From Protonemura montana (Eukaryota > Arthropoda > Insecta > Plecoptera > Nemouridae), in assembly GCA_947568835.1 (NCBI GenBank), contig OX387608.1:7354001-7418000 (forward strand): 64,000 nucleotides of DNA, in the 5' to 3' direction. The number at the start of each line of letters is the position of its first letter. Within the stretch, counting starts at the first letter, position 1. Shown in pieces: positions 17,943-64,000 of this stretch. The notes beneath the pieces are model-generated. The model was not told the origin of the DNA. It saw only the letters and a list, made by a program, of their open reading frames with translations, and ran no database searches. Made by a program: the position numbers and the translations under genes.

Positions 17943-18390
17943 ATTATTGTTGATTGATTTGTGGTGTTTAACGACGCACTGTTTTGACGACTGGCCCTGT
18001 GGCACTGGTCTAATGGCGTCGGTGAATGAGTGCATGATGATGAGGATGATGATGAATCTAACATAGCGTAGAAGAGAGGAGAGGAAACCCGGTGCCGGCA
18101 CGAAGCCTACTCCTGTCGAAGAGCACCAAGGGGACCACCGGCTTAACGTCCCTTCCGAAGGACGGTACAACTCGAACAGCAGGATTCATCCACAAACCCA
18201 TGCTGCCGAGAGGTTGATACGCAAGGCGAGTGAAGTTGATGTACTAACCTTCATATTTTCAGCAACTCTCCCGAACAGAACTTGACATGTGTATGATGAT
18301 CACCCATACAATTCCTGACCAAGCGCAGCGTTGCTTAACTTCAGTGATCACACGAGAACCAGCGTTTCCAACACGCAAACCCGATCGGTA
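17943..18390 (-). mobile_element. 5S-derived SINE, nearly full length
   Basis: Complete minus-strand copy: 5S-like head ending at about 18390 (ACGCTGGTTCTCGTGTGATC), body with GGCACCGGGTTTCC and GACAGGAGTAGGCT, and tail AACACCACAAATCAATCAAC. The head carries several substitutions. No target-site duplication was evident. Confidence 0.85.
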
Positions 18391-23951: not shown

Positions 23952-24651
23952 CTAGTTCTTGATGAGATCGATTCACGTTAATCAACACTGCGCTGAGTCA
24001 GGTATTGGATGGGTGACCATCATACAAATGACCAGTTCTGTTCGGGAGAGAGATTGGAGGGACGAAAGTTAATCAACACTGCGCTGGGTCAAGTTTTGGA
24101 TTGGTGGCCATCATACACATGACCAGTTCTGTTCGGGAGAGAGGTTGGAGGGATGAAAGTTAATTAACACTGCGCTGGGTCAAGTTTTGGATTGGTGACC
24201 ATCATACACATGACCAGTTCTGTTCGGGAGAGAGGTTGGAGGGATGGAAGTTAAGCCTCACTGCGCTGAGTCAGGTATTGGATGGGTGACCATCATACAC
24301 ATGTCCAATTCTGTTCGGGAGAGAGCTTAAAGGGAGACAAGTTAGTACAGCAATGGCATTCGCCTTGATTATCAACCTCTCGACAACATGGATTTGTGGA
24401 GGAATTCCGTTGTTCGCGTTGTACCGTACTTCGGAAGGGTTGTTAAGCTGGTGGTCTCCTTGGTAGCTACTCTTCGGTAGGAGTTGGCTACGTGTTGTTA
24501 CCGGATTTTCCCGTATCCCTTCTATGCTTGATAAGGTTCGTCATCATTATCATCATCATCGTCCAATCATTCATCGACGCCATTATACCAGTGCCACAGG
24601 GGCTGTTGTTAAAACAGTGCGTCGTTAAACACAAATAATCAATCAATTGAC
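23952..24651 (+). mobile_element. 5S-derived SINE with a four-fold internal 91-bp amplification
   Basis: The segment running from the 5S-like head (CACTGCGCTGAGTCAGGTAT) through GAGAGAGGTTGGAGGGATGA is repeated four times with exact 91-bp spacing (CACTGCGCTG at 23986, 24077, 24168, 24259), after which a single body and tail follow to AACACAAATAATCAATCAAT. Units 2 and 3 share GGGTCAAGTTTTGGATTGG, so they derive from one another. The intragenic promoter has thus been multiplied inside one element. Confidence 0.85.
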
Positions 24652-25571: not shown

Positions 25572-26035
25572 CTGCTGAGCATTATTTATTTATTTGTGGT
25601 GCTTAACGACGCACTGTTTTGACATCTGGCCATGCGGCACTGGTCTAATGGCGTCGGTGAATAAGTGGATGATGATGAGGATGATGATGAACCGTACCTA
25701 GCCTAGAAGGGAGAAGGGGAAACCCGGTGCCGGCACGTAGCCTACTCCTGTCGAAGAGCACCAAGGGGAACACCGGCTTAACGTTCCTTCCGAAGGACGG
25801 TACAACTCGAACAGCAGGATTCCTCCACAAATCCATGCTGTCGAGAGGTTGATAAGCAAGGTGAATGAAGTTGCTCTACTAACTTTCATCCCTCCAACCT
25901 CTCTCCCGAACAGAACTGGTCATGTGTATGATGGTCACCCATCCATTACCTGACTCAGCGCAGTGTTGCTTAACTTCGGTGATCTAATGAGAACCGGTGT
26001 TTCCAACATGCCAAACCGTTCGGTTCTGCTGAGCA
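25572..26035 (-). mobile_element. full-length 5S-derived SINE with 10-bp target-site duplication
   Basis: Complete minus-strand element (25582-26025), head CGAACGGTTTGGCATGTTGG through tail AAGCACCACAAATAAATAAA. It is flanked by the direct repeat CTGCTGAGCA at 25572-25581 and 26026-26035. The flanks joined together (TAAAC...CTGCTGAGCAAACGAG) match the uninterrupted repeat family B at 22765, so an empty site exists within this same window. Confidence 0.9.
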
Positions 26036-30186: not shown

Positions 30187-30633
30187 CCAACCGTGCCGAA
30201 CGGTTTCGCGTGTAGGAAACACCAGTTCTCATGAGATCACCGAAGTTAAGCAACACTGCGATGAGTCAGATATTGGATGGGTGACCATCATACACATGGA
30301 CAGTTCTGTTTGTGAGAGAGGTTGAAGGGATGAAAGTTAGTACAACTTCATTCGCCTTGCTTATCAACCTCTCGACAGCATGGATTTATGGAGGAATCCT
30401 GCTACACCGTCCTTCGGAAGGGAAGTTAAGCCGGTGGTCCCCTTGATGCTATTCGACAGGAGTAGGCTTCATGCCTACACCGGGTTTCTCCTCCTCCCTA
30501 CTAGGATAGGTACGGTTCATCATCATCCTCATCATCATCACTCATTTACCGACGCTGTTAGGCCAGTGCAACAAAGCCTGTTATCAAAAGAGTGCGTCGT
30601 TAAACACAATAATCAATCAATCGACCAACTGTG
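30187..30633 (+). mobile_element. full-length 5S-derived SINE ending 25 bp before a Gart acceptor
   Basis: Element 30196-30624, head CCGAACGGTTTCGCGTGTAG through tail AACACAATAATCAATCAATC. Flanks CCAACCGTG (30187-30195) and CCAACTGTG (30625-30633) form a 9-bp target-site duplication with one mismatch. The Gart exon acceptor AG is at 30648-30649, so the insertion fell inside or next to the 3' splice region. Confidence 0.9.
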
Positions 30634-33600: not shown

Positions 33601-36600
33601 ATAAATCCGTCCGTCTGCTACGAACAAATAATAAACAGCTACTTCACTTGATACAAGTATTCTTTTGTAGCATTTCGTTCTAGACAAATATCTCGTTGTT
33701 TGCACCTGCGGCCTGAAGTCGCTACTGTTTAAACTGAAACAACAGATAAGCTATCACAGGTTTTACAGCCATTTTCCACAGTGCCTATATACCGTGACGA
33801 ATATAGGTTATCAGGGCGAGAACATAAAATATTGAACACTTATAATAATAATACTGGATAATTATAGCAATCACACAGAGGAGATTATTTTTACTCGAAG
33901 TATTATTTTAGAATTGTATGTATGGCACCGAACGGTTTGGCGTGTTGGAAACACCGGTTCTCGTTAGATCACCGAAGTTAAGCAACACTGCGCTGAGTCA
34001 GGTATTGAATGGGTGACCATTATACACATGACCAGTTCTGTTCGGGAGAGAGGTTGGAGGGATGAAAGTTAGTACAGCAACTTCATTCGCCTCGCTTATC
34101 AACCTCTCGACAGCATGGATTTGTGGAGGAATCCTGCTGTTCGAGTTGTACCGTCCTTCGGAAGGGACGTGAAGCCGGTGGTCCCCTTGGTGCTTTTCGA
34201 CAGGAGTAGGCTACGTGCCGGCACCGGGTTTCCCCTCCTCCCTTCTAGGCTAGGTTAGGTTCATCATCATCCTCATCATCATCCACTCATTCACCGACGC
34301 CATTAGACCAGTGCCGCAGGGCCAGTTGTCAAAACAGTGCGTCGTTAAACACCACAAATAATAATAAGTATGTATGACCCTTATCGATCTAATAAAGTTA
34401 CTATACCCAATATACCCAAAGGTAAAGGTATAGGTAATGGGTAAAGGTATACCCAAATCATCAGCCTAGCTGAGCTTTGATATCTAGGTATAAAAATATA
34501 TATTAAAATATAATAACTGTGAAACTTTGACATTTTCTGAGTTGAGTACAGTATGGATTTAACGAAGAATATTTCACAACAAAATCAAAAGCAAGTTAAC
34601 CTCCATATGAAAAGACTTTATCAACCATAAATAACAGAATGGTGAAGGGATTGGATTTTTAATTAATATATTATATCAGAACAGGCAATCAAAAAAAAGT
34701 CATATCATTGTAATAAATTGCGTCGTTAATGTGCTCTGTTTTTTAAGTACAGCTGGGTTCAATAGCTAATTATCTTTACAGTAAACAAGTATTAGTTTCT
34801 TGCTGAACTAATAACACACCTACTGAACTAGTATTTTATCTGGCCTTTATATTGAACGGCACAAATAGCCTAGTAGCTGACGGGCCGCTTAACTCCACAA
34901 AATAATAATAAAAATTAACATTGAAATCGAACAAGAAAAAAATAATTACACTAATTAATGAACAAAAAAATATACATTTTCTTCCACATTGACCAGTTGT
35001 TAAAGAAACAGTAAAATTTAGCTAACTAACAAGCTACTTGCGTAACTTAGAAAGTAAAGTCTTAGAAATTGTAAGTCTTATGAAAGTTTGGTGAAAGGAA
35101 AGAGGATCCCTCATTTCAAACAAACTTCTGCACACCAACTATACAGACGTAGAATTAAAGTCGCTACACTTGAAATCAATAAATGATTCGATTGAAGAGA
35201 AACACAACTCTTACTTTTCGAATGTTTTTCTACTTGCCAATTCCCGCGCATTGCAAGCGTTTGCAATTAAAAAAAGATTTCATCCTAATGAACCTCTATT
35301 CTGATTACTCAATGAACGTACTATGAACATACACTATTGTTAGAGTTATTACAGGGATAAAGGTACAGACAAATTTTTGCTGCAACATTCAAACATTTAA
35401 TTTAATTTTTTCCCGAAAAGGTATATTCTTCGATTAGTAACATAAAAAATAGTACCTTTAAATCAACCATTCCCTACACTCACGAGAACTGCGTGCTAGA
35501 GAAAAGACAATATTTGAAGAATCTACTGACTCTTTAAATGAATAAAAGATTTTTTAAAAGATAATCTTAATAACCATTTTAGCGTTGTTTTCGATGAAAA
35601 TCGACATCGGCAAACCGACTCCTTGACCGATGTCTTCGAGGACTCGATCGCCCTTCCATAGAGGCTGTCGTCAACATTAACAGATCAGAAGACAATGTTG
35701 CTATTGTCGGATTTGTCATAACTGTAGTCGGTGGATTTGTAGTCGGTGGAATTAAGACAACCGATTTTGCGGTGGTTAATAACGTACTAGTAATAGGGAC
35801 TGTGTTCGGTGCTTTTGTTGTTGATGGTAAAGAGGTGCCAGGAATTGTGGTTGAAGCTTTAGGTGTTGTTGTTCTTATCGTTTGAGTAACAGAAGCTGTG
35901 GTTGGTCCTTTTGTTGTTGATGGTAAAGTGGTGCCAGAAATTGTGGTTAGATCTTTAGGTGTTGATGTTCTTATCGTTTGAGTAACAGAAGCTGTGGTTG
36001 GTCCTTTTGTTGTTGATGGTAAAGTGGTGTCAGGAATTGTGGTTAGATCTTTAGGTGTTGTTGTTCGTATCGTTTGAGTAACAGAAGCTGCGGTTGGTCC
36101 TTTTGTTGTTGATGGTAAAGTGGTGCCAGGAATTGTGGTTGAAGCTTTAGGTGTTGTTGTTCTTATCGTTTGAGTAACAGAAGCTGTGGTTGGTCCTTTT
36201 GTTGTTGATGGTAAAGTGGTGCCAGGAATTGTGGTTGAAGCTTTAGGTGTTGTTGTTCGTATCGTTTGAGTAACAAAAGCTGTGGTTGGTCCTTTTGTTG
36301 TTGATGGTAAAGTGGTGGCAGGAATTGTGGTTGGAGCTTTAGGTGTTGTTGTTCTTATCGTTTGAGTAACAGAAGCTGTGGTTGGTCCTTTTGTTGTTGA
36401 TGGTAAAGTGGTGCCAGGAATTGTGGTTGAAGCTTTAGGTGTTGTTGTTCTTATCGTTTGAGTAACAAAAGCTGTGGTTGGTCCTTTTGTTGTTGATGGT
36501 AAAGTGGTGTCAGGAATTGTGGTTGGAGCTTTAGGTGTTGTTGTTTGTATCGTTTGAGTAACAGAAGCTGTGGTTGGTCCTTTTACTGTTGATGGTAAAG

Positions 36601-39600
36601 TGGTGGCAGGAATTGTGGTTGGAGCTTTAGGTGTTGTTGTTCTTATCGTTTGAGTAACAGAAGCTGTGGTTGGTCCTTTTGTTGTTGATGGTAAAATGGT
36701 GCCAGGAATTGTGGTTGGAGCTTTAGGTGTTGTTGTTCTTATCGTTTGAGTAACAGAAGCTGTGGTTGGTCCTTTTGTTGTTGATGGTAAAGTGGTGCCA
36801 GGAATTGTGGTTGGAGCTTTAGGTGTTGTTGTTCTTATCGTTTGAGTAACAGAAGGTGCGGTTGGTCCTTGTGTAGCTGGTGGTAAAGTGTTCACTGGAA
36901 CTGTTGTTGGCTCTACTGTTGTTAATTGACGAATGGTTTTTTCTGTTTTCAAATTGGTACTTGTGGTGACAGATGACGTTGAATTTTCGATACTTTGATG
37001 TGACATTACTGTAGTTATTGGCTTTGCTGTTATCCGTGGTATTGATGCTGTGATTTTTGGCATTTCTGTGGTCTGCGGCATTGTTATTGAAGTCGCTGTT
37101 CCTTGTAACGGCCATATTACATCAGGACCCGTATCGGTAGTTGTCAACACGTTGCCAGCCTGTGCGGTCTTGTTAAGGACGCCGTGAATGAAAAAGTCGA
37201 GCACATTGCCGAACTCCGGTTGCCTTTTAAAATTCTTCTGCGCAGAGAAGATGACATCATTGATGGGCGCAGAAAGTGCAGCCTGCAAAGTTAATATTGT
37301 CGATATTACTTGCTTTAAAGGTAATTTGCGGTTTTAGTTTACAAATTTACTCACAGTAGAACTTAAATTTATGATCAAAAACAATCTTAGCACCATGTCA
37401 GCCTCACTCTGATTCATCACTGATATGAAATCTGTCTAAAACGTCCACACATATATTGTAAGGTACTCTAGTTCTTGTTACTCTTGCGTTGCACCTGAGT
37501 ATTGACAGTAGCCAACGTGTCTATCACAAAATCAACTGTCAGTCCGTCACATTCGAGACGTTTGTCATGTTATCATTGGCTGGGATGTTTATGACAAATT
37601 ATTCTAGGCTAAAAAAGTCGACAAGATCATTGTACCGTGCAAGCTTATTCTTTGTAATAATTTTTTTTTGTGGTATTGTTATGGAGTATCAAATGTGGTC
37701 AACGAAGTGAACCTGAAATGTTATCTGCATTTTGAATAGAGGCACGCAACCTATTGTTATTGCAGTGCTATATTATTAATTTAATTAGTTCATTTGCTGC
37801 AATTGACCTTTGTTTGAGTACGTGACCGCAGATTATTTGTGCAACCGCTCTAGGCGTCAATGGTAGTTATTTAATGCAGAGAAGCGAAACTAATTACTTC
37901 GGTGTATACAATGTATATGCCGTCGATATATTTACAATTTTAAAACCATTTATTCTGGTTTAATGAGAAAAAAAATCGGTGTACCAAAAACAACGTCAAC
38001 AGAATGTACCAAAATCTCCTCCACTTGACCAAGTGGTGGACGATCCTCGGTGCTGTTTGAATTACAAATTCTGGATGTCATCCTAGATTGCTTCCACCTG
38101 TCCGTCATCAATCAGCAGTCAATATACTAGTGAAGCATGAGGGCTAGTCTCATAGCTAGTGTCCAGTTAAATAAGAATCAGGAGGTTAAGATGCTAACGG
38201 AAGTTTCTGATTGGCTGAGACTTTCAACAATCAGTTATCTTTTTAATCTTTGAAAAAAAAATGCCCGTTAGACAGATTAAAAATGTGTCGTATTCCAGCC
38301 CGTGGTGTTGTCGGGCATGATCCGATACAGAGTTTATCATCTTTCTTCAAATTCAAACACTGGATTCACCTTTACCTCTCTTGTTGGCAGGTCGCTAGGT
38401 TGACTAACGACTTCTCGACCCTGGGTGAAGACCTAGTAGCAAACTGTTTGAACGGCGTGCTCGGATCTGGTGCAACGCCCCTGTTCTTCTCGTATCGGCT
38501 GGCGGGGGGCGCGCTAGACTCAGAGGCGGTAGAAGTTGTAAACAAGAGCATCCAGGAGGCGTGTGGCAAAGCGAAGTGCAAACTGCTTGGTAGGTATTTT
38601 GATTTTTAAGAGGTACGAAATAGATTATGACAAAAACTTGGATTAAAAAGTCCAGTCACTTTTTTAGTTTACAGCCAGCTGATATCGGCTCCATGGCAAA
38701 TGCTTTACAGCACGAAAGAATCTTTGTGTCCCGAAAATACCAAAAGAAGCATAAGGGGTACCCATTTTCTAAAGAAAAATTATGATATAAAATACAAGCG
38801 GGTATATGCCCATCTGCAACGCAAGAAAATCAGTATTTTAATTAGGAATCGCTGCCTTGTGTCATATTGAATTTGATAATTAATTTCTAGTGAGCCAGTC
38901 GACGGTGGCGCCTAGCAGCGGCGGCGAGGATAAATGCGAGCTTGCAGGGTTTGCCGTCGGGACTCAGCAGCGCTGTCCGTCGACCTCGGCACCTGTGCAG
39001 CATGGAGACGTCGTATTGGGTAACCATATAAAGGCTTTCATTTTGCTATAAGAGGCCGGAGAAAATATAAAAATCAATTTCATGATAAACCATCTCTAGT
39101 GGCCCTGGCGCTCGAAATAAATTTTTTGGCCCCTGAATTTAAATGGCCGGACAAATTCACGAGGAATTAATGAGTGAATGCAAGAAAGAGCAACCGAATT
39201 TGAAAGAAAATTTGATGACACCACAAATTCGTTTTTTTTATGTTTTTTTTTGGGGTATAGAAAAATAGACAAAAAAAGAGTTTTCACCAAGCCAATCAAA
39301 GACTGAGCTCACAGTTTTTCATGTTTGCAACGTGCTTATCCCGGAAAAACGGGCATGAAATTATAAATTTAAAAAATACCACAAGGACAGAGGTTCTAAG
39401 CCGCTCCTTGTCTCTGATACTCTCAGGGATGACGGGTGAAGGCGTCGACGGAATCGTGGTCACCCTGGCGAGGAAGGTGATGGAACAAAACGGTATCAGA
39501 CTGTCGGAGCCGGCACCATTCTCTGGCTCCAGCAAGACTATTGGTGAGTTGAACTTCGACTGAAGCTCCTATAAAATACTTCAAGGGGAATTCCGTGTTT

Positions 39601-42600
39601 TGCTTGAATAACGACTTTTATAAGAATTGTAAGGAACCAACTTTCCTGTAAAGAAAACACAAAACACAAACATAAACTATTTTGTATATCCACTCCACGA
39701 CGCAGGCGCTGAGCTTCTCGCACCGGCCGCTATCCTCCCTGAAGCGCTACGGAAGTGCGTGATATCAGCCACTGCAAAGTTACTGGTTCCTCTAACCGCC
39801 GCCAGTCTGCGAGACAACGTGGGTTTGGCGCTAGAGTCGCATCTGGCAGTTCGTCTGGACGCCGCTCAGTGGCCGATGCCAGCGCTGCTTGGATGGCTGA
39901 TGCAACAGGGTACTGTATTGATGATTTCACGAATCATCGCGAAAGGTCGTAGTTCTAGTCTTGAGGTGAATTATAGGTGAACGTCGTATAGTTACTCGAA
40001 AGATAAACATTTGTTGGAGTTATTAGATAAGTTACAAGAGTTATAAGTTACAAGAGTTGCGGCTGAAGGTTTTGTGAATTATCACCATTTTATAGCTAGG
40101 TGATTTGTGGGGGCAAAAAAATGCTCATTTTTGTTTTTCTTCAAAAGGTACCCTGCAAATTCCCTGCAAACGGTTCTCTATTCCTAGTTTCGTTTTGCAT
40201 TTTTTTCAACTATTTATCCCAAATGAAATTTAACTGACATAATTTTCGGTTTGCTGGTATTAATCATGTATCAATTTGAAAACTATACAACTCTCTTTGT
40301 TTTTGACTAGGCTGCAGTGAAGAAGATCTGCTGTCAGGATCAAATCTAGGATTAACAGCGCTCCTGGTGGTCAGCAAGGATAATGTGGCCAAAGTACGAG
40401 CGTCACTTACGTCACAGGGTGTGACTTCGCACGCCATCGGAAGTGTAGAGAAGGCCGTTTCAGGTTGGTAGAACGAATCATGATAATCGGCTTTACAATA
40501 ATTCACAACTGCAACTATTTAGTACCAGCTGTTGTGCAACGTCTGACAGCGCATACGATTTTTTCGTTTTTCGCTGTAAATTTGCATAATTGAAAAGTAC
40601 TTTACACGTGCTTAAAGTTGAAACGGATCCGACGTGTTTTACGAATCACAGGTTTAACAACCAACCCTCTTACATCAATCTACTATCTTTTAACATATAA
40701 AAAGTTGATTATGAAACTCTCTAGGCGAGAAGGAACCTGAGGAGATGTTTTAAGACTGTCAGAGAGTAACAGGTAATATTTTGTATATTTCACACACCGA
40801 TGCAATGAGAAACAGCAAGTGCCGTTTGCTGAAAAGTGCCATAATTTAAGTCACAACTTGAGACCGTGCGAAAAAACCACGTCGATTAGTAACTTCAATT
40901 ACAAGCCCATAAGTTGAACCTATTTGCTTAGGAAACCAGTGCGAACAGTAATTGACGATTACTTGGCAAATGCTGGAAAGGATTGATAAACTTGTATACT
41001 TGTAAAATTGGCATTATGTGATATATAAAAGGTGTGCTGTGTTGTATACTTCATGACTGTCTTATATCAACCTTGATCCCTGGACAATAAACCGAACGGT
41101 CTGGTGTGTTGGGAACACCGGTTCTCGTTAGATCACCGAAGTTAAACAACACTGCGCTTGGTTAGGTATTGGATGGGTGACCATCATACACATGACCAGT
41201 TCGGTTCGGGTTGGAGGGATGAAAGTTATTACGGCACTTTCACTCGCCTTGCTTATCAACCTCTTGACAGCATGGGTTTGTGGAGGAATCCTGTTGTTCG
41301 CGTTATACCGTCCTTCGAAAGGGACGTTAAGCCGGTGGTCCCCTTGGTGCTCTTCGACAGGAGTAGGCTACGTGCCGGCACCGGATTTCCCCTCCTCCTT
41401 TCTAGTGTAGGTTAGGTTCGTCATCATTCTCATCATCATCCACTCATTCACCGAATCCACTCAATCAAATAAATTTGCATCAAATTTACATCAAAAACTT
41501 CAAAGTAAACGCTCCTCTGGTTTGGATTCAGAAATATTTTTCCATAGTACTGTTAATTTTGCACAGGCTCACCGCGAGTTACCGTGTCCAACATGCGCGT
41601 GCCACTACCCGTCATGCAGACTCAGAAACGCCGCGTGGCCGTGCTAGTTTCGGAGTGCGGCAAGAACCTGCGCGCGTTGATCGAAGCGACGCGCGATCCA
41701 CGCAGGCGTACCAACGCTGAGGTCGTGCTGGTCGTGTCCAACGTACCTGGGGTGGAGGCGCTGGAGGTTGCGCAGAGTGCAGGCGTGCCGACAATGGTTG
41801 GTGGGGGGAGTGTAGTTAAGAAGGTTTTACCAAATTCTCAACTCTTAGTTGAAGTGTTGGTTGAAACTATTGCCATGACAACTTCCGATCATATCCAGTG
41901 AAATTCAGATGTTTCTGTGAGTTGGAGATTCAAATTTTAGTTGAAAATTTTGGTAAAACCTTACCTTAGTTGCTTTCAATCTATCTTCTAAGAGGTATGA
42001 TTTATTTTTGTCGAAAGAGCTAGTGGGAAAAAATTCATACAGAGGGCTTTGATATGGTACATTCGCTTGTGGGCTAGCCTTTGTTTCTAACTACTATTCA
42101 AATATTCTGAGGGGAAAAACGCATAAATCTCAATGCCACTTCACGCCAAGGTCACCATACCAAAAGGGGATGATTTTGTTAAATTATTGTTCACAAAAGT
42201 AGGAGCTAAATGTGTTTTTATATGAAGACTTTGTTTATTGCTTTCTTATACAAGAATATGGTTGATTTTTCACCGCTTAAAGCTAAAAAAAGATATACAT
42301 GTTTTTCTTTAAATATTTTAGCAACCATGGCACTTCTATTGGCAGATTTTGTGGAGGTGCCAGATTTGCTCTGCGGGCAGCGTCTAGGAGCTAAAAAAAA
42401 TATCTACCTGTTATTATGGCATGAACGGTGCCTCTAATAAAGTAGATATTTTGACTTTATCTTTCTCTTCAACTTGCAAATTTTAAGTTTAAAACTAGGT
42501 CGTTGGTGTTTGAACGACGATGTGACTTAGTAATTAGAGACGAAGAATAACATATCTGAGAATTGTTTCAGAATATTAGCAGCCTTGCTTGTTGATACAC

Positions 42601-48424: not shown

Positions 48425-51400
48425 ATGGTGTTGGCCCTGTTAGTGCTGTTGTGGCGGTTCGTGACAAGCAAAGACCCTCCACCAGTGTTTGACGTCTACA
48501 GACGCCCGGGGAAATGGTTCCTGCTCAAGTACTACGTCTTCCAATTGATATTCAGATTCCGGCAGGTTGGTATTAATACGCGCAATTTGGCAATTCTGCG
48601 CAAGATCCGTGGTTTTCTTAGAGAATGGAGGTTAAGAGTGGAGGGCTCAAACTAACGAATACTGAAATTTCTTGCCGTGGTATTAAAAAAAAAACCGTGG
48701 ACGGTTCTTAGGGCTGTTGGACAGGAGAAATGGTGAATTTTACAAATGCTTTCTTCAGTTTTGAGTGCATACATTCTTAAATTGAGCAAAGAATTGCTTT
48801 GTTTTTACAAACAAGTCTGCTGGGTTGGTTACTTTTGAGACCTTGGGAGTCAAAACTAACAAAAATGTCATTTTCATGCAAAAATTAATCTTCATTATCA
48901 AAAACTCCAAGTCACAATAGACTGAAGGTAGGTTGTACACAGTGAAAAATAGAAACATTTCTAGAATATATTTTTAGTAATTGAAAGTGGTTAAATTGGT
49001 TAACAATAAAGTAAATCTAACTAGACAGCGGTGTTTTTCTGCAAAAAGGAATTTGCCTGCACTATTTCAACTACATTTTGAAAACTCCAAGACTGTAACC
49101 TCCTTTTCAGTGGCAGAACAAACGCGCAAAGACCGACAAGTCGGGAGCCAAGAAGACAGGTGCCGGCTACGGGGTCAACACGCACAGCCACGCCGATCTG
49201 ATGGACCAGGCTCAGCCACTGTCTAAGGATATCAACGTGAGCTTGCCAGTCTTTCGCTTCTAAAGTAGAATGCGCTAAGAAAACCGTGAGAGATTTTGCT
49301 GAAATTATAAATTTTTGGTTTGTTTCGTATTCAAAATTGGGAGCAGAAACCTGTATCTAGAAAACTGGAGATAGAAACATAAATTTTGAAAAGCAAGGAT
49401 AAAAAAACTGACGGAGGATCGTTGAGAAACTCAGTTTAAATAAAAATTTCTTGCAGTGGAGAGAGAGTGTGTGCATGTTACGAAACCCTAATAACCATTC
49501 AAATATTTACGCCCAAACGGGGACCCGAACCCTGATCTCCACCTGTCTTGGGTGTTGCTGTAACCAATAAAGCTAATTAAACAAGTAATTTTTGAGAGGA
49601 TTTGCGTGCATTTGATGGGACTGACATATCTCCAAGAAGTAGAACCATAAGGTTGTAAATACTCACAGTCACTGTGATTCCAGTGACGCTAAACCAAGTC
49701 ACAACCTGTCAAACCCGAGTAACTTCAAAATGACATTGGATGTGTTTAGTTCTGTGAAATCTGATTTAAATTGCAAATTCTTATGAACAGAGCCCTTTTT
49801 TAAATAGAAACATTTATGACATGCCAAAAAATTGGAGTAGGAGACTTGAGGTAAAAAGTTAGGGGTAAAAGGTGCACAAGAAAACCAATCTAAAAAATGT
49901 ACAAGAATATGCATTGCTTTAATCAGAAAAATACATGATTATTTTTGAAATGTCACTTATAGTAAGTGCATATTTTGTGATCAGTTCTGTTCTTATTGAT
50001 CGTTAGTTTTTTTTTGTGATATCCACAGACCAAACCTGTTCTGAAGCTTACATCTAGTTAGCTACCTGAGAGCTCTACCTCCAGTTCTGTCGGTCCATTC
50101 TCGCAACACCTATTACCTGCTTGATGCACGAAAATCAGCTTCCACTGCACGTGGCAAGACTTTTTATTAATGTGGTGTACTCGGTTCGATTCCCTCTGTA
50201 GGCGTTCGACGCAGTCTTCTTCATCGGCTCCAGCCAAGACGGACACGCTCTGATAGTCGGCACGGAGAGGCGTCAGCGCGGCATCATCAACGGCCTCGTC
50301 TACCTACTGGTAAATCACCCCATAGCGGGCAAAGTTTCCGTAAATAAAGGTCAGCTCATTTTCAATCATGGATAAACCAGCATTCTTGACCAACGGTTGT
50401 TAGTTTCAGTTTCGATACATGGGGAAAAACGTGATATTTTTAACGCGTCATGAAATTATATTGCCTATAGCGATGGGTGGAATAATATTTTCATGCGATC
50501 GACATAACTTGAATTTAAACAAACATATTTAGATCACGAAATATTTCTTTCTTGAAAATCTATGTGTTATTAACGGCGTATTCGACTGGCTGCCCCGTTG
50601 CGCCCCAGGTGTACTCTGGGAGCGATCTGTGTGTTCGACTGGGCATGTGACTCTGCCCCAGTGCAACTTTCACGTGTTGGACTGGGCATGTGACTCTGCC
50701 TCAGTGCAACTTTCACGTGTTCTACTGGGCATGTGAATCTGCCCCAGTGCAACTTTCACGTGTTCTACTGGGCATGTGAATCTGCACCAGTGCAACTTTT
50801 ACATGTTCAACTGGCAGATTTGCTCGCTCTCGGGTCACTTCTCTCTGGTACACTTTGCTTACTCCAAATATTTAGATTGTCTAAACAAATGAATGCACTG
50901 AAAGCTAGTGAGCACGTGTTCGGGTGGGCGCGCTCTCCCTCAGAGCTGGTGCAAACCCAGAGGAGAGCATGTCGTCATCGAGCAAGTTTGAAATCCCCTC
51001 TGGTGCAGGTCAGTCAAAAACGCCATTAGAGTTATTGAGGGAGTTATAATGATAGATTTTGAGGGGATAAGAGAACAAAAACTATCGAAGAATACGTCTA
51101 GCGCGTGTCTGTCGCTTTCCGAGCCTAACTCAAGTGTTCTCAATGTCGTTAGGTCCCCGGCAAAGGGCTACTGTGCAGCAAAAAGCTGCCTGACACCGTG
51201 CTTTTCGGCGCCAAGGAAGACGTGTTCGGCGCCGAAGGGATCCTTCTGGAACCGGTTGTACCCATGCGTCGTTGGCGACTCCAGTTCGACGGGGACATGT
51301 ATCTGCAATCAGACCCCACGGTCCAGGTAGAAAAAGGGAACATCTTTTAGCTAAAGCCATCTTAAGGGAGCTGGTTAATTTTTTTGGAGGAATTCACCTA

Positions 51401-54400
51401 GCTTTGCAGTATTGTGCTCTTTGTCCAGTAAACTTTAAACAAACAATATTGATGCTATTGTCCTGGACAGGATACGTGCCGAGACCGGGTTGCTTCTAGG
51501 CTCACATGTTGCGACAAGGTTAGAGCCTTTACAGGAAAAGCGCCCAGACAGTGTGACAAAGGGACAAGGCTAAACACTGGCCCTTAGTGCTACTGTGAAG
51601 GAGCATCCAACGAAGTGCGTCAAAGAGACAAGGCTAAGCGGTGGCCTGTCCTTGGTGCTGTTGGACAGGAGCAGCCAACAAAGTGTGTCACAGGGACAAG
51701 GCTAAGCAGTGGCCAGCCCTTAGTGCAGTTACACGCTAACATGATGCTTGCCAATACCAGATTTACCCTACACTCCCATCTTAGCTCGGTTAACCTTTTG
51801 ACCTCGTTTTCAATTGCAGGTGAGAGTAAAGATTGAAGCGGACTGGCGGTCTAAGATGCCAGTGTTCAACTACGACACCGATTTGCATCCCTCAACGGTG
51901 TCTACGTCGATCGCTAAGGAGCCCTGGACAAGGGAGTACTTTAAGAGTCTCGAAGAGTGCGTACATGCTAGCCCAAAGTATTTGTCGATCCCTAGCAAGA
52001 TTTTGTGTTTTTTTTTATATCCAGCAAAGAAAGACAGTAGTGTTTCTCATTTCATTGAGTGGATTAAGGATTGAGATCAATCTTGAGATAAAACCCGTCT
52101 GTGGTACTTAAAGCCATTAAGCCGTTGCATTGACCTATGAGTTCCCATTTTGATAGCTGATATCAAAAAACAGGATTGGAAAAATCGTACACACCCCCTA
52201 GTCAACAGTTTTTCTGAGGTAGTAATTGCCAAAATTGTATACATACGTCAACCTTGGCTATTGCTTCCATAAAAAATCACGTTGTGCTGATTTATTGCAT
52301 TATTGCAGAGCCCACCAAACGCACTACGAACAGATGGGTCATCTGACAGGCTTTGCCGAAATCTCGACCGCCGATAAAAGAGACATCCTCTCGCTCGACA
52401 TGCAATCGTTCCGCGACCACAGCTATGGTAAGACTGGGGTGGATTTTAAAGCCGTACACATTTCTTCAGTTCGTCTATATGTATCTCATGGCATTCGCAC
52501 CTGATTAAGCATGCCAGACATAATTTCTACCAATCATTTACGGACATTCAGCTAGAGGGTAAAGGCAGATTTTGGGCCATATGCGTCCGTGGGGCTATCT
52601 GTGTTGTTCTTAAGGAAGAAAACACTTGAAATTTCTCTATATCTGAGGAAGAAACTCAAAACAAGTGGTAAATTTGGCTGGCTCTACCGTGGCGCCCTAG
52701 GTCTGAACTAGGGGGATCTACGTGTTCTACTTGGCATTTGACTCTGCCCCAGTGCAACTTTCACGTGTTCGACTGGGTATGTGACTCTGCCCCAGTGCAA
52801 CTTTCACGTGTTCGACTGGGCACGTGACTCTGCCCCAGTGCAACTTTCACGTGTTCGAGTGGGCATGTGACTCTGCCCCAGTGCAACTTTCACGTGTTCG
52901 ACTGGGCAAGTGACTCTGCCCCAGTGCAACTTTCACGTGTTCGACTGGGCATGTGACTCTGCCCCAGTGCAACTTTCACGTGTTCGACTGGGCATGTGAC
53001 TCTGCCCCAGTGCAACTTTCACGTGTTCGACTGGGCATGTTGACTGCCCCAGTACAACTTTCACGTGTTCGACTGGGCATGTGACTCTGCCCCAGTACAA
53101 CTTTCACTTGTTCGACTGGGCAAGTGACTCTGCCCTAGTGCAACTTTCACGTGTTCGACTGGGCATGTGACTCTGCCCCAGTGCAACTTTCACGTGTTCG
53201 ACTGGGCCTGTGACTCTACCCCAGTGCAACTTTCACGTGTTCGACTGGGCATGTGACTCTGCTCTAGTGCAACTTTCACGTGTTCGACTGGTCATGTGAC
53301 TCTACCCCAATGCAACTTTCACGTGTACGACTGGGCATGTGACTCTGCCCCAGTGCAACTTTCACGTGTTCGACTGGGCATGTGACTCTGCCCCAGTGCA
53401 ACTTTCACGTGTTCGACTGGGCATGTTGACTGCCCCAGTACAACTTTCACGTGTTCGACTGGGCATGTGACTCTGCCCCAGTACAACTTTCACTTGTTCG
53501 ACTGGGCAAGCGACTCTGCCCTAGTGCAACTTTCATGTGTTCGACTGGGCATGTGACTCTGCCCCAGTGCAACTTTCACGTGTTCGACTGGTCATGTGAC
53601 TCTACCCCAGTGCAACTTTCACGTGTTCGACTGGGCATGTGACTCTGCCCCAGTGCAACTTTCACGTGTTCGACTGGGCCTGTGACTCTACCCCAGTGCA
53701 ACTTTCACGTGTTCGACTGGTCATGTGACTCTGTCCCAGTGCAACTTTCACGTGTTCGACTGGGCATGTGACTCTGCTCTAGTGCAACTTTCACGTGTTC
53801 GACTGGTCATGTGACTCTACCCCAGTGCAACTTTCACGTGTTCGACTGGGCATGTGACTCTGCCCCAGTGCAACTTTCACGTGTTCGACTGGGCATGTGA
53901 CTCTGCCCCAGTGCAACTTTCACGTGTTCGACTGGGCACGTGACTGCCCCAGTGCAACTTTCACGTGTTCGACTGGGCACGTGACTCTGCCCCAGAGCAA
54001 CTTTCACGTGTTCAACTGGGCATGTGACTCTGCCCCAGTGCAACTTTCACGTGTTCGACTGGGCATGTGACTCTGCCCCAGTGCAACTTTCACGTGTTCG
54101 ACTGGGCATGTGACTCTGTCCCAGTACAACTTTCACGTGTTTGACTGGGCATGTAACTCTGCCCCAGTGCAACTTTCACGTGTTCGACTAGGCATGTGAC
54201 TCTGTCCCAGTGCAACTTTCACGTGTTCGACTGGGCATGTAACTCTGTCCCAGTGCAACTTTCACGTGTTCGACTGGGCACGTGACTCTGCCCCAGTGCA
54301 ACTTTCACGTGTTCGACTGGGCATGTGACTCTGCCCCAGTGCAACTTTCACGTGTTCGACTGGCAGAGTTGCTCGCTCTCGGGTCACTCCCGTCTGGGGT

Positions 54401-57699: not shown

Positions 57700-59419
57700 T
57701 ATAATTTAAGTATCGAATCATATTTAAAAATCTATTAATACATTATTAATACATTACATCTACAAACTTAATATGGTGCAACGTAAAGGTGCTCGGTATG
57801 TCGAAAACTCCTTCGGTATCTCCCCGAGCCCGACAAAGTTGATCAAGACGCTTAACTGGGAAAGCCTAGAACAGCGCAGGGTTACCTCGAGGGTAACTGC
57901 AATAAACCGATCGTTCATCCGAAAGGTATTCCGCTTTTTTTTCAGAACGAGACGATTGGCATTCACTTTTTATTAGCAAGGACCATGCAACATATACACA
58001 GTAAAGACTGAAAAGTTTACAGGAGAAAGCAGTTTGCAAGACCAGTAGAATGATACATAATTTAAGAAACTGATTACAAACGTAAAAACAGTTGGCAAGG
58101 AATACGTGACAGATACACATTAATGACAGTACACCACCTAAATATTTCCTACGGGCATACAGTGAAGGAAGGTTTCGCCTCTACACTATGTATAATTGCC
58201 GGACCTCACCCCAACACCAAGCAGTGCTGGGGCACTTGGCCACTCCAAAAAATAAAGGCGTTCACCCGTTGCCACGATCTGACGCGAAAATGCAACCTGC
58301 AGAGCCCGACTGGAGGAACGCCAGCCGAGCTCCGATAACCAAAGATGCACTCCAAGTCTCTTGTCCTTAACTAAGTATAGACGAATGCGCAGTCGAGCTA
58401 AGTCAGACCACGAACTCTGTTGGATATCAAATGAACTTGATCAATGAAAATGTCAAGAAATCACGACCATGGGTCGGTAACTCGCTTACCTGTTGCAGGT
58501 AGTACACCTGCAATTTATATAACATACAAAATTCGTAGAATGAGAAGGTGACTATTGTGTTCGAGTGCCTTTGTTGTCCGATTCGTGAGTAATAGGTGCC
58601 GGGTTCGAGGCTCCGGACATGAGGATTTTTTTTTTATATGCAAAAACATGAGGAGATCGTATAAAGATTTTAACACCATTACAGGATTAATATTTTCAAA
58701 AAAATACATGATCTCAAGGTAAATTTAGCAGGTAGTACACGCTGCTATAGCGGATTACAGGCCTACGATGATGGAAGCCTACTAGGACTTCGCGAACGCA
58801 ATTTGAGTTGTGTTGTAAGATTGATTGGCATGATAAAATGTGAGGCCAATCCAGTGTATAGATCAAAGCAAAACAGACAAAACTCTCAAAATGATGTCAG
58901 AAATTTTCGAATAAAAAGAAAGAAAACACAAACGGGCACAAAAACTCCATAACTGTTTCATTTTGATGCACATCATATCTAATGTACTCGATAAAAATAA
59001 CAATACACAACTAACCCAGATAAAAAGCTCTGAAAATTTCGTTCCAATCTGAGAATATGACCGTTAGAGCGAGAACAAAAATGCGAAAAATTTATTTTTA
59101 AACCAAAAACTTAACTACAAGTTAACTTACTCATAGTGAAGTGGGTAAGTGAAGTCGAAGTTTTCGCTCCGCTTGCAAAGCTCATCAAGTAACAGCACAG
59201 GGATGCAATTTTCATTTGTTGCATTTTGTGTCCTTGGCATTTTTTTTTCAATTCTGCCTCGTTAGTGCGTTTTTAACACGGCTAGTTAGGTTTCGTTCTA
59301 ATTAACTAGAGCAACGGGAAATTGTCGTGTTAAGTAACCCAAGAGTACTCTGTTGAGATATCAAGAACTAGAATAGTAATTAATAAAATGTCGATAAATC
59401 AGTGATCAGTCGGTGACTA
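57700..59419. other. intergenic, with one tRNA-like segment
   Basis: No exon recognised. At 58556-58620 TCGAGTGCCTTTGTTGTCC and GTGCCGGGTTCGAGGCTCC are placed like A and B boxes and are followed by a T run (58627-58635), a Pol III terminator; probably a tRNA-derived SINE. Confidence 0.35.
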
Positions 59420-61333
59420 CCAGTGTCGGACTGGCTCCAAAAGGCCCCGGTGGCAATGAGACTTTTGGGGCCCCGCAAAGCCCATGCCTTGGTGGGGGGG
59501 GGGGGGGGGGGGAGTCCGCCAAGCAGGAAAGGAATGTATAGGCAAGGTGGTGTATAGGTAAACTAAGGGTTGTATACACATAAACTGGTAGCAGCGCCCA
59601 AGTCCGGCGTTAGAGAATGGAGATTGTACAGATACAATGATCGATCAATGGCCAATTTGAAATTAATTAAACCAAAATTATACACCTGTGACGTATCGAC
59701 TTGAGATACGATTGTGTCGTGTACGCACAGTGTAGGGTTTGGACGCCCGAAGCAAAACCCAAATTTTGTGCTCCGAAAAAAACTCAGGCAGCACCTCACA
59801 CGCCAAAATTAAATGAAAACATTTGTCGACAAGAGTCAACACGTCGACGATTCATAAAATTGAATAGACGATTTACAACAAGGCTACAGGACTCTACGAA
59901 ATCGTAGAATCACGATACACGATATTAACACGACATTACAACACAATATTAATTGCCTTTGGAATTACTGAAAATAAAGCCTTTTTGAAATCGTCTATTT
60001 ACTTCTCAGAAAAATGCTTGTGCTAGGGCAAAAACATACTGGTGCATTTCTTTGTCTGGAATACGATACATTTTCTGCCCACTGCAGAGGTTATTTTTGG
60101 CGTAAGCTCACGTTAGCCCCGCATACCCACTTTTTCTTGCGATAGTGTAAATCGATCATTCATTTCCGGAAAGGTTTGCTCTTCTCTGCTCTTATATTCG
60201 AAAAGCACGTGTTATTTTTACGTGTTAGTGAAAAATTTATTTGCAAGTGGAAATCTACGATAACGTACCTACGTTTTTTCATAGGATCTTATCATTCTGA
60301 AAATAATATGCCAACACTCAAAACTCAAAGTGTTGTAGGAGTACAGCTAATATGATGACAACGCAAAGCGATCGAACTATCTAGGCTCGACGCAGCGCCA
60401 ACAAAGCACTGCGACACTCGAAAGTGTGGATATTGTTTCAATGTTAATTCAATGACAAATTCGCTGTAATTTTAGCCGTTTTTTTCTGGTACTGTTCTGT
60501 TTCAAGATACTGATACACACATACTGACACAACAGCTGTTCGAAACATCACTCTTAAACACATTCTGTAGCCAGCTCAGACTTCAAATTTGAATTTAGGC
60601 TTGCTCGGGGTCATCATTCAGGCAACAATCTGTAGACAGCAAAGCACGAGTCCGCCAGACCCGTGTAGCTGACAAATAAAAATCTTAATTTCCCCGTAGA
60701 AACGCCAATAATTATTGTTGCTAATGTGAAATAAGCGCGTGGTCGACGTCTAGCTCCACTGCAAATATGTGGTTAGCTCAATGCAAACCCTCATAATTTA
60801 ATAACCCATACGATGCAAATTTGGAAGTTATAATTTAGAAATTCATGTAATTATTATTCGATTATCAACACCATGCTTATCGTAACTTCTAAATGTTGTC
60901 CAACATCACTTACTACTTTACTTCGACTTCTTTACTTTACATTTAAAAGAAAACCCAATTCGGCGGCCACCCCATGCATTTTTGGGGCCCCCTAAGTGTG
61001 CAGTTTCTTTGTATGTGCTACAAGTGCTACACAAGTGCGTTGTATAAAATACTATTCACTTTGGTGTCGCGTTGAAAGAGCGCGAGGCGATTGAAACGGG
61101 TCGAACCGGCGCCCCGTTTGTGTCGGTGTCGCGAGGCCCGAATGACAGGCGTATAATGTTATTCCGTAAGTCTAGAAAAGTGATCTTAAAAATGTTCCCA
61201 AAATTATGTTTGGAACCATGATTTGTGGGTTTTAGCACGAAAATCAAATTTAAAAAATCCAGCCGGTCGGGGCCCCAGGCCGGCTGGAGGCCCCGGCGGC
61301 ATTTGCCGCCTGCCCTGGCCAGTCCGACACTGG
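59420..61333. mobile_element. 1.9-kb DNA-transposon-like element with 16-bp terminal inverted repeats
   Basis: CCAGTGTCGGACTGGC (59420-59435) is mirrored exactly by GCCAGTCCGACACTGG (61318-61333). Both ends are followed by GGCCCC-rich segments (59440-59480, 61265-61305), and a further one is at 60961-60995. A 3-bp repeat, CTA, flanks the ends (59417-59419 and 61334-61336). No transposase frame survives, so it is nonautonomous or decayed. The superfamily is unclear: the CAGTG ends suggest hAT, but the expected 8-bp duplication is absent. An 18-bp poly-G run lies at 59495-59512. Confidence 0.6.
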
Positions 61334-61539
61334 CTAGATGTGATTTCTTTATATCTTGTTTTATTTACTTCCTGCAAAAGGTACATGAAAGTGGAACGGA
61401 GGATAAACGGGGCCAGGTTCGTATCCCGCTTGGTGCACTATTTTTAACTAAGAATCAATCACCTACCAAGATTGTTAAAGTATTGTCATGCAACTCTCGC
61501 CGGTCTTCGTAGCGTCCATTCGGCGGCGAGTGAAGATCG

Positions 61540-61592
61540 CTCTCGTGCTCAGCGCCAGGGTGCAGAGGGTCGCTGGTTCGAAGCAGGTAAGT
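61540..61592 (+). mobile_element. tRNA-like segment
   Basis: CTCGTGCTCAGCGCCAGGGT followed by GTCGCTGGTTCGAAGCAGG. The B box is good, the A box is weak. First member of a cluster that continues to the end of the window; a lone B-box-like GGTTCGTATCCC at 61415 may be another remnant. Confidence 0.35.
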
Positions 61593-61682
61593 CACATGTG
61601 TGTAAAACTGCTGGATATGTATTAATCTTTACAGAGAAAACTAACATCTCTTCTCGATGGTGTACCGTGATCCCCGCCAGCT

Positions 61683-62160
61683 GCTATTCAAGTATATGTT
61701 ATTTCCTCTGGTATAGCAACACGTCTCAGTGGCCGTGAGGCACGGCCATTTCTTCATGGGGACATTGCTTAACTGTGTCGCGAGTTCGAATCCTGCCCGA
61801 TCCCCATTTTGTTCTTCATCAAGTGGCGACTGGCATTCATTGAATGCTGCAAATATTGCATCGCTCGTTCATCCATCGAAACTCTCAAAGTATTTTTGAC
61901 TCTTTTCATTATTACACTGTAGTCGTCTTCTGCTATTCATGTATCTCTTTGTTCCATCGATAACCATCTCGTCTCGATGGCCGGTTGGAAAAGTCGCTCC
62001 TCGAAAGAGCAATTCGGATGTGACCGTGTTCGAGTCCTGTCCGCTCCGCTTTTTGTTCTTCACGACATAGCTTGCACAATCTTTGATAGTGCATGACAGA
62101 GGCGATGTAGTGTGAAGCGATCTCCATGCTGCCGGGGTGGGATAAGAAGGCAAAAAAAAA
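61683..62160 (+). repeat. two tandem copies of a ~245-bp tRNA-like repeat
   Basis: Unit 1 (61683-61920) and unit 2 (61928-62160) share, in order, GCTATTCAAGTAT / GCTATTCATGTAT, CGTCTCAGTGGCCG / CGTCTCGATGGCCG, a B box (GAGTTCGAATCC / GTGTTCGAGTCC) and TTTTGTTCTTCA. Each therefore has a tRNA-like head at about 61733-61805 and 61978-62047. The head does not fold into a normal cloverleaf, so a SINE is more likely than a tRNA gene. Confidence 0.6.
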
Positions 62161-62520
62161 AACCCGACAAACCAGCAACTGGGTGTGGCTCGTGTCCCTG
62201 CAGAGGGCGCTATCAGCTGACACTTTCACGCTAGCTCGCGGCAACTGGTGGTAGCCCGTATCTTGGAGTGGACGATTGCCCCTGCATTACTTGGTGCGGG
62301 GGTCAGGTCCAGTTCTTGCTCGCTGCGTAAGTCGGTCATAGTCGGTCATAATATCTTGAATTTCTTAAATGATGGTTCACTGAAACGCAAAGAAGAATGC
62401 GACTTCGAACCGTAGTATACATTGAGTGCCGTCAGTGACATGTGCCTATAGTCAACCCGGTAAACAGGGACATCAGATATGAAATTAAAATTCATTCAGT
62501 TTACCATAGCAAGCGACCGT

Positions 62521-62600
62521 CTGCGTAGCACAATGGACATGTCGTTAATTCGGAATCATCAAGCTATATTGTGACCTGGTTCGATCCCGCTCACCGACAG
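62521..62600 (+). mobile_element. tRNA-like segment
   Basis: TGCGTAGCACAATGGACA (A-box-like) and CTGGTTCGATCCCGCTCACC (B box) with a 27-nt spacer between arms, followed by a T run at about 62606. Read as a tRNA-derived element. Confidence 0.45.
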
Positions 62601-62697
62601 GATATTTTTTCTATTGGAATACGACATTCAAATTAATCACATATGGTAGCTGCAGTCAGAAGAAATTATATACCATAAAAATGCATATAACACTAGA

Positions 62698-62790
62698 TGT
62701 CCGCGTGGTCGTGCGGTACGAGGCACTACCTCTTGTGAATAATCATGAGATTGCCGTGGTCCCGGGTTCGAATCCCGTCCGTACAACTAC
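62698..62790 (+). mobile_element. tRNA-like segment directly before the hairpin run
   Basis: GTCCGCGTGGTCGTGCGGTA and CCCGGGTTCGAATCCCGTCC give A and B boxes; the T arm CCGGGTTCGAATCCCG pairs well, and the 3' GTAC can pair loosely with the 5' side. The central arm is too long for a normal tRNA unless it has a long variable arm. A T run at 62811-62818 would end Pol III transcription before the hairpins. Confidence 0.5.
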
Positions 62791-62841
62791 TGCAGTTTCA
62801 CACCTCTTATTTTTTTTTGAACGCATACTATAGATACCAGG

Positions 62842-63111
62842 AAAATTGCGGAGCGCTCCTGGCGCTTCGCGCCAGTCGCGCTCCGCAATTTTGCAGCGCT
62901 CGAGCGCGCTTCGCGCGCTTGAGCGCAAGCCGGTGGGCGTCCAAGCGCGCTTCGCGCGCTTGGACGCCCACCGGCGCGCCCGTGCGCCTGAGCGCGCGAA
63001 GCGCGCTCAGGTGCACGGGTCGCGACGGCACGCTGCTGGGCCCTGGCGCGAAGCGCCAGGGCCCAGCAGCGCGCGTGAGCGACTGGCGCGGAGCGCCAGT
63101 CGCTCACGCGC
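62842..63111. repeat. run of six consecutive GC-rich hairpins
   Basis: Six inverted repeats follow each other almost without gaps. (1) 62842-62892, outer 14-bp arm and inner CTGGCGC/GCGCCAG, loop TTC. (2) 62896-62926, 14 bp, loop TTC. (3) 62929-62975, 22 bp perfect, loop TTC. (4) 62979-63019, 19 bp with one mismatch, loop GAA. (5) 63032-63070, 18 bp perfect, loop GAA. (6) 63071-63111, 19 bp perfect, loop GGA. The stem tips are alike (GGCGC or GCGCGC) but the outer arms differ, so this is not a simple tandem repeat. Loop sense flips from TTC to GAA half way. Overlapping ORFs of 60-132 codons on both strands are by-products. I know no named element with this structure. Confidence 0.95.
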
Positions 63112-63425
63112 TCGGGCTTCTACGTCTTGCATCAAGTATATAGGAACGATAATGAGTGTTCAGCATCATCAGCGCCACCTGTTGGCAGGATTTTGTACTA
63201 TACTCTGGACTTGTAAAAATTGAAGACATATGCCAAGTCTGATTTTTAATCTAATTCATTAACTAATCGGCAAACAACTATGAAAAACAGCAGGAAAATA
63301 TCAACATATTTGTCCAAAGTGTAGTACAAAATCCTTTCAACAGGTGGCGCTGATGATGCGTAACACTCATTATAATCGTTCCTGTACGCTTGATGCTAGA
63401 CCTAAGGGCCAGCGCCAGAGTATGG
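63108..63425. repeat. inverted repeat with ~75-bp arms
   Basis: Left arm 63128-63201 and right arm 63322-63397 are complementary with few mismatches (ATCAAG, AGGAACGAT, AATGAGTGTT, CATCATCAGCGCCACCTGTT, AGGATTTTGTACTA). Weaker symmetry extends outward, with GCGCTCGGGCTTCTACGT on the left against the complement of GACCTAAGGGCCAGCGC on the right, so the pair borders the hairpin run and may be part of the same element. The spacer is about 120 bp and AT-rich. Confidence 0.85.
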
Positions 63426-63702
63426 CACCGTTGTCCTGGGTGTCCAAGTGGTGTTAGGCGACAGTCTGTTCTTACATAGTGAAAGATCCAGGATGAGTAA
63501 ACTGAAAAGACTTCGAACGTATTTTTTTTTTTTTTACGATGATGGGCAATACTGAAGCTGATGTTTATAAAATTTCGTCGAAATATCTTTTATTGAAAAT
63601 CATGGAGGCAGTGTTTGAGATTTTTTTCGAAATTTTTAACGGAGTCGTCTCAGTTGAACAGTTTTTTGTATCCCAAAAAAAAACATGGCATTCAGAGTGT
63701 GA

Positions 63703-63772
63703 CGTGTGGTCGAGCGGTTAACGTGGCTGCATCAGGTATCATAGGTCCTGCGTTCGATCCTCGTTGCCTACA
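63703..63772 (+). mobile_element. tRNA-like segment near the window end
   Basis: GTGTGGTCGAGCGGTTAACG (good A box, Ser/Leu-like) and CTGCGTTCGATCCTCG (B box), followed by a T run at 63775-63782. The arms between do not make a clean cloverleaf. It is the last of the tRNA-like cluster. Confidence 0.5.
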
Positions 63773-64000
63773 TCTTTTTTTTAATCACACCAATCATCCT
63801 CCAGGGCAAGAAAACATTTTTCAAATTATGTTTTAGTTCCTAGCCTGGCTACCAGTTGGTGATAGCATCGACGAAACAATGTTGGCCATGGTGGGGGTCC
63901 ATTGGGAATGCTAAATGAAAAGATGGCTACAGTTATTAAAAGAAAATGTAACTGAAGGTGGAAAAATGAAGGATAAGATTGGTATATAAGTAAATAAATG

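Follow-up and report, generated by a model that had tools for sequence, protein, structure and literature searches.

How long stems stay well paired is a long-standing question. Template switching is a proposed answer for which there are few clean natural records, and loop inversions are rare in an rRNA survey, as far as its available text goes (PMC8794818). The question is raised for DNA by a run of six GC-rich hairpins in Protonemura montana, at 62842-63111 of the 64,000-nucleotide stretch analysed here (the window; C11:7354001-7418000 of a 258-Mb assembly in 34 contigs): what keeps the arms matched, and what turns the loops? We place a probability of roughly 60% on a reading in which these are DNA hairpins that are repaired and turned by replication template switching while riding in a mobile element.

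Structure of the hairpin chain

The six hairpins are real: inverted-repeat analysis confirmed a preliminary description of this DNA that listed six inverted repeats with 3-nt loops TTC, TTC, TTC, GAA, GAA and GGA. H1 (62842-62892) has 24-nt arms with two internal mismatches and H2 (62896-62926) has 14-nt arms with one, both closed by TTC. H3 (62929-62975) has perfect 22-nt arms and, in the window copy, the loop TTC; H4 (62979-63019) has 19-nt arms with one mismatch and, again in this copy, the loop GAA. H5 (63031-63071) and H6 (63071-63111) overlap by one base and each have perfect 19-nt arms, with the loops GAA (in the window copy) and GGA respectively. The tips, thought at first to share GGCGC/GCGCGC, fall into two classes, CTGGCGC in H1, H5 and H6 and AGCGCGC in H2, H3 and H4. 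GC content is 74% in the chain and 41% in the window, and the surroundings, which had been called AT-rich, are not strongly so (46% GC in the left 1 kb and 39% in the right 885 bases).

The fold comparison proposed in the preliminary description placed both strands far below dinucleotide shuffles (z from -17.4 to -19.3). Treated as single-stranded DNA, the + strand folds at -171.1, whereas its shuffles average -93.9 (z -19.3); for the - strand z is -17.4. Folded as RNA, the two strands give -19.2 and -18.4. None of 200 shuffles folded as well as the chain on either strand, as DNA or as RNA. Five 3-nt-loop hairpins with arms of at least 11 were counted in the chain, under a mismatch rule that misses H1, against a mean of 0.007 and a maximum of 1 when the 270 bp were shuffled base by base 300 times. 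Downstream, a large imperfect fold-back (63125-63400) directly abuts the chain; in one group of copies about 24 extra bases lie between the two. One of its two arm pairs measures 62 nt with 90% complementarity, the other 29 nt with 83%.

A module of a dispersed repeat

When the genome was searched for the chain, 40 of 623 candidates were scored; the 186 match rows include many in which a palindrome overlaps itself. Forty loci including the window copy were examined, on contigs C1, C2, C3, C4, C5, C11, C13, C15 and C16. Both chain anchors are present in 39 of these, three of the loci (L037, L038 and L039) being divergent or partial; L040 is without the right side and still has H1, and H2 is missing from one group of copies. 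What the copies have in common is a dispersed repeat of several kb, with the chain as one of its modules. The earlier idea of a mobile 'hairpin chain' holds in so far as the chain belongs to a dispersed repeat, where it is one module of a larger whole rather than a demonstrated mobile unit itself. Among the deflating outcomes named in advance, a simple satellite is not what we find. The copies are dispersed, with no tandem array listed at the chain, and bacterial contamination is unlikely given that the chains sit on nine large contigs and that an exact 25-mer of H6 is without a match in GTDB contigs, which also led us to reject a prokaryotic origin. An organelle GC cluster or double-hairpin element was rejected as well, the copies lying on contigs of 13-33 Mb and not in mitochondrial DNA. 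The 17-bp tip with a GNA loop does occur once in each of 49 viral-contig stretches, none of which holds more than one perfect triloop hairpin with 12-bp arms.

Homology with a copy on C1 covers 59496-60835 and then extends from 61310 to 1294 bases beyond the window end. The chain-carrying module occupies 61335-64000 on the + strand and runs past the window (to L041:1294), ending ...CTGCCCTGGCCAGTCCGACAC; on the left, some copies have its boundary near TAGATGTGATTTC (61335). The adjoining upstream repeat (59421-61330, + strand) has this same terminus CTGCCCTGGCCAGTCCGACAC and a candidate left inverted terminus, CAGTGTCGGACTGGC, at 59421. Among 20 left ends, 12 start near TAGATGTGATTTC (TAGATG) with differing upstream DNA, and 8 are directly preceded by a neighbour's right-end sequence, ...CCAGTCCGACACTGG. 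Another left sequence, joined near 61416, is common to L012, L018, L030, L031 and L032, and L019 and L020 have a third in common. At its right end the repeat reads ...CTGCCCTGGCCAGTCCGACAC(TG), and in three of 20 right ends a 34-bp terminal unit is repeated head to tail (24 units in L080, C13:1499700-1500700; 5 in L082; 2 in L076). The right ends of L011 and L014 were not recovered, nor was that of L002 with the search string used.

Several insertions are flanked by duplications, namely CAAAGAT (L050/L074), GTCCGAG (L062/L071), GGTCCA (L015) and, weakly, ACCCA (L058/L081). The composite in the window, CAGTGTCGG...CCGACACAG, is flanked by GTGACTAC/GTAACTAC, alike at 7 of 8 bases, and no flanking duplication was seen for four copies with one common flank pair (L051/L077, L055/L067, L033 and L034). 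The terminus CAGTGTCGGACTGGCC occurs at 188 genomic sites, 94 per strand. Judged by its ends, the repeat resembles a terminal-inverted-repeat element, as a candidate class only. The hAT transposons have CAG...CTG inverted termini and make 8-bp target duplications; a hAT-type terminus is absent just upstream of the 12 left ends near TAGATG, the place being taken by a neighbour's right end in the 8 others. Profile searches of the genome gave 77 hAT dimerisation-domain and 10 DNA_pol_B_2 matches, with none of either within 10 kb of the CAGTGTCGGACTGGCC sites (100 of the 188, compared by eye). No long open frame was seen in the repeat, stop-to-stop frames not exceeding 134 aa for the window element or 144 aa for copy B; a longest frame of 185 aa in copy C recurs with a 1000-bp tandem array. 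A coding element was also rejected for a larger candidate with the CAGTGTCGGACTGGCC terminus, in 9.5 kb of which the long frames (>124 aa) are short-unit repeats. The interior of the repeat varies between copies, and in the one at L084/L085 there is a 1000-bp tandem array that includes 28 CTGGCGC-class hairpins. At L101 (C1:12982200-12984700), four hairpins of the same tip class lie in mirror order (GGA, GGA, TCC, TCC) over 1.7 kb, at 371-2100.

Such a repeat might employ the chain as a cis-acting site for a single-strand-based step of its transposition or replication, with the loop flips as a by-product. GRA triloops would favour hairpins in single-stranded DNA, one tip class occurs 703 times, and the genome has at least 150 Helitron_like_N matches, those listed all having open frames of 797-2061 aa. 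Helitrons and other HUH rolling-circle elements make no target-site duplication and have canonical termini. Here, however, several insertions have target duplications of 6-8 bp, and the ends are not Helitron-like; the duplication-like CAAAGAT, GTCCGAG and GGTCCA, together with the right end GACACTG, led us to reject that class. Moreover, among 150 listed Helitron matches none is on C1, where many chains lie. REP/BIME sequences are associated with a Y1 (RAYT) transposase, and the rejection of this class rests on PF01797 being without a match in the genome, which also counts against the cis-acting site. We regard the cis-acting role as improbable.

Arms change in concert

Pair covariation was scored in 25 of the 39 aligned copies (without L024, L027-L036 and L037-L039; L040 is unaligned, its right anchor being missing). 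In this set 97.0% of 2900 stem cells are paired, and 19 of 116 pairs have changed on both sides, against a shuffle mean of 7.7 with 0 of 500 shuffles as high; when partners were slid, the number fell to 0-5. The count of further pair types (36, shuffle mean 32.9, 44 of 500 as high) is not exceptional. Parsimony on a tree built from the flanks alone gave 48 two-sided changes, comprising 43 Watson-Crick replacements on single branches and 5 others, alongside one-sided changes of which 69 were breaks, 16 fixes and 6 other. One-sided breaks are therefore commoner than two-sided replacements, and are most numerous in H3 (30 of 69). Controls with shifted pairing returned 4-7 two-sided and 177-179 one-sided changes. 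The arms change in concert beyond chance, and the stems thereby stay paired. The flank tree holds 36 copies (without L037-L039), with 16 of 33 inner branches well supported and a length of 1.83 substitutions per site that is inflated by poorly flanked rows.

A three-pair replacement in H3 is common to L012 and L018. At an internal site of H1, 30 of the 38 copies with letters are paired (29 read GA/TC, one AA/TT), and the rest read TC/TC (four) or AA/TC (four); the window copy has the 2-bp TC/TC mismatch, and we infer that the mismatch was repaired rather than gained.

Four stems (H1, H4, H5 and H6) are more conserved than the flanks, and two (H2 and H3) less so. Mean pairwise divergence is 7.9% in the flanks and 2.2, 12.3, 14.5, 2.3, 1.2 and 2.3% in the stems of H1 to H6, calculated for 22 copies (the 36 minus nine H2-less copies, L005, L008, L021, L024 and L028). 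The H2 stem evolves fast yet is mostly paired.

These figures bear on whether selection on a structured RNA, such as a Pol III transcript or a small-RNA precursor, keeps the stems while tolerating changes in the loops. The excellent RNA fold relative to shuffles and the slow divergence of four stems (1.2-2.3%, flanks 7.9%) are what such selection would produce, and upstream lies a B-box-like motif with a T-run. The motif, a B-box match (GGTTCGAATCC, 62765-62775), is in a tRNA-like stretch of putative function at 62698-62818 (+ strand). That stretch was called neither by ARAGORN, whose single tRNA in the window lies elsewhere, nor by Rfam at gathering score. The rapid divergence of the H2 and H3 stems (12.3 and 14.5%) goes against constraint of this kind, and the stem mismatches comprise 31 G-T and 33 A-C; this lack of a G-U bias speaks against selection on one RNA strand. 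Such selection would also leave the inversion of whole loops unexplained. Rfam gave no match at gathering threshold in 59400-64000, those over the chain being to miRNA families below their gathering scores. We accordingly rejected microRNA precursor families, and a known structured RNA more generally, since the window element matched only such families plus one short tmRNA match, all below threshold; miRNA-family matches in other copies were likewise below cut-off. The multi-hairpin RNA suggested at the outset is thus disfavoured, and we think it very unlikely that selection of this type maintains the chain.

Loops flip between closely related copies

Almost all loops (212 of 218, from 39 copies) are TTC, TCC, GAA or GGA, which is to say GRA on one strand. 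Canonical loops of H1 and H2 are always in the pyrimidine sense and those of H6 always in the purine sense, with no flip at these three hairpins among the copies examined. The other three vary. In 36 copies, H3 has 19 pyrimidine, 16 purine and 1 unscored loop; H4 has 9 pyrimidine and 27 purine; and H5 has 23 pyrimidine and 13 purine. The alternatives to the window's loops are GGA, GAA or TCC at H3, TTC (once TCC) at H4, and TTC (in the sister copy L002), TCC or GGA at H5. On the flank tree of these 36 copies, sense has changed at least 5 times at H3, at least 5 at H4 and at least 10 at H5, or 5, 5 and 8 times without three long-branch rows. With shuffled labels the means are 11.8, 8.2 and 10.9; those for H3 and H4 exceed the observed values, showing that these two follow the tree, and H5 is nearly scattered. 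H5, the most frequent flipper, is without a two-sided pair change in the 25-copy set.

Even copies whose flanks diverge by just 1.5-2.2% show flips. Between the window copy and its sister L002 there are 40 differences in 1814 flank sites and a single flip, at H5, from GAA to TTC. Similarly, L034 differs from L033 and L035 at 24 and 27 of 1632 flank sites and by an H4 flip.

Across the genome, CTGGCGC-NNN-GCGCCAG occurs at 703 sites, and at 680 of them (348 + 332) the loop reads GNA on one of the two strands, a share that is inflated by common descent. Hairpins with GNA loops are exceptionally stable in DNA according to the accessible part of one report, and this supports easy folding of single-stranded DNA (PMC4686876). 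The GRA loops of the chain are within this class of very stable DNA mini-hairpins, and folding of the single-stranded DNA in the cell may be inferred. All 25 CTGGCGC-class hairpins in 20 stretches elsewhere and all 28 in copy C are mismatched below the tip, and in each the GNA loop strand is constant relative to the mismatch; mismatch-bearing hairpins therefore show no flip relative to the mismatch. Good pairing is not sufficient for flipping, since H1 and H6 have long, good stems and no flip was seen.

Template switching or exchange of arms

Of the processes considered here, template switching alone yields matched arms as well as inverted loops. It is expected to leave multiple compensatory changes together with loop inversions, as described for RNA hairpins in the available text of the study that also reports 69 cases of loop inversion alone in rRNA histories (PMC8794818). 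In the chain, change on both arms exceeds chance (19 of 116 pairs; 48 two-sided changes against 4-7), and whole loops have inverted with the arms kept at H3, H4 and H5, though not at H1, H2 or H6. The suggestion that repeated hairpin-directed copying formed the chain fits these data, in which arms change together and loops invert. We envisage that hairpins would form in the DNA, during replication or as cruciforms, and that the very stable GRA turn would help them to do so. During copying, the growing strand might then jump to the other arm or to the complementary strand, read through the loop and come back, so that one switching event would even out both arms and could turn the loop around. 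It would be largely its own copying behaviour that leaves the chain near-perfect, perhaps helped by some use of the structure, given the low divergence of stems H1, H4, H5 and H6 relative to the flanks. Points against this reading are the excess of one-sided breaks over two-sided replacements, the unexceptional count of further pair types, the lack of two-sided changes at H5 and the fixed loop sense of the well-paired H1 and H6.

The main rival is that a cruciform or hairpin is processed by recombination, with exchange of the arms inverting the spacer and gene conversion evening the arms. Cruciform formation by the chain is plausible, and loop-only inversion with intact arms is what such exchange would give. 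At 14-24 nt, however, the arms offer homologous recombination little length, and a second process would be needed for multi-base changes on both arms. Small palindrome-associated inversions by arm exchange have been proposed for chloroplast DNA. Frequent inversions at palindromes are reported in chloroplast trnH-psbA (PMC2903610), and hairpin stability reportedly correlates with inversion (PMC3123225), in both cases going by the portions of text at hand. Sequence data separate arm exchange poorly from template switching, and we judge the former rather unlikely.

Short conversion between hairpins or copies could also move the loop state, because tips are common within H1/H5/H6 and within H2/H3/H4. 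In 12 of the 13 copies with GGA at H3, neither H2 nor H4 of the same copy offers a GGA/TCC donor; donors may lie in other copies. A bolder and doubtful extension makes the chain a self-correcting DNA device, in which GRA hairpins would extrude whenever the repeat is single-stranded and use strand switching to renew their arms, with loops that turn several-fold faster than a base mutates; the sense of the outer hairpins H1 and H6 would be fixed since a protein or a replication step of the repeat reads it.

Comparison with known systems

The process is already known; a nuclear repeat that records loop inversion this often is a new form of it. Judged on titles and the opening lines of abstracts, the literature yielded no nuclear hairpin chain with flipping loops, and the hairpin tip strings had no literature match. 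The closest parallels, each described from partial text, are as follows. Template-switch hairpins likewise gain several compensatory changes per event, with pairing restored from the other arm and loops inverted, but they were described in genes for microRNA and rRNA, and inverted loops were rare there (PMC8794818); the chain instead strings six DNA hairpins together within a dispersed repeat, and its loops have flipped recurrently. Organelle palindromic GC clusters and double-hairpin elements are also short, GC-rich and dispersed, with stems that change less than loops and units that merge into larger clusters; they are mitochondrial and short, whereas the chain is on large nuclear contigs in a multi-kb repeat, its loop variation is largely inversion and two of its six stems evolve faster than the flanks (PMC4478555). 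Bacterial REP/BIME mosaics share composite runs of palindromic units, alternating orientation and high copy number, in contrast to a genome without a Y1 transposase match and a chain with 14-24 nt arms and GRA triloops (PMC2817692). Small inversions in chloroplasts (PMC2903610) and nuclear microinversions in birds (PMC3123225) similarly turn sequence bounded by inverted repeats, with homoplasy; the former are single plastid loci and the bird hotspots are not stem-loop-associated.

With dozens of copies, up to six hairpins in each and a clear loop polarity, the repeat family could serve to measure, within a single genome and among its relatives, how fast loops flip, how arms are corrected and how both depend on stem and loop. 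Comparison of its copies is a record of how DNA hairpins evolve.

Other features of the window and genome

The Helitron_like_N matches (at least 150 scored of 207 candidates) have nearly equal scores and frames of 797-2061 aa. They are found on C7, C8, C33 and parts of C2, C4, C5, C11, C12 and C15, many clustered about 10-20 kb apart, which suggests recent Helitron activity. The window has six dispersed 5S rRNA matches (44-164, 18269-18389, 25904-26024, 30196-30309, 33927-34047 and 41091-41206) and a 91-bp tandem at 23977-24344 that is 5S-like by eye. Frames at 38247-38606 and 41557-41898 match AIR synthase and formyl transferase domains, as would suit a gene of the GART type for purine synthesis. 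Long minisatellites, their units measuring 43, 54 and 96 bp, lie at 13078-15296, 20275-20801, 35800-36890, 50631-50814 and 52720-54363, the 43-bp unit recurring at three places. C16 starts with CCTAA repeats (L176) and the window has a GGTTA array, a combination that hints at arthropod DNA, whereas the ends of C1 and C11 (L177, L178) are TTTGG-type repeats.
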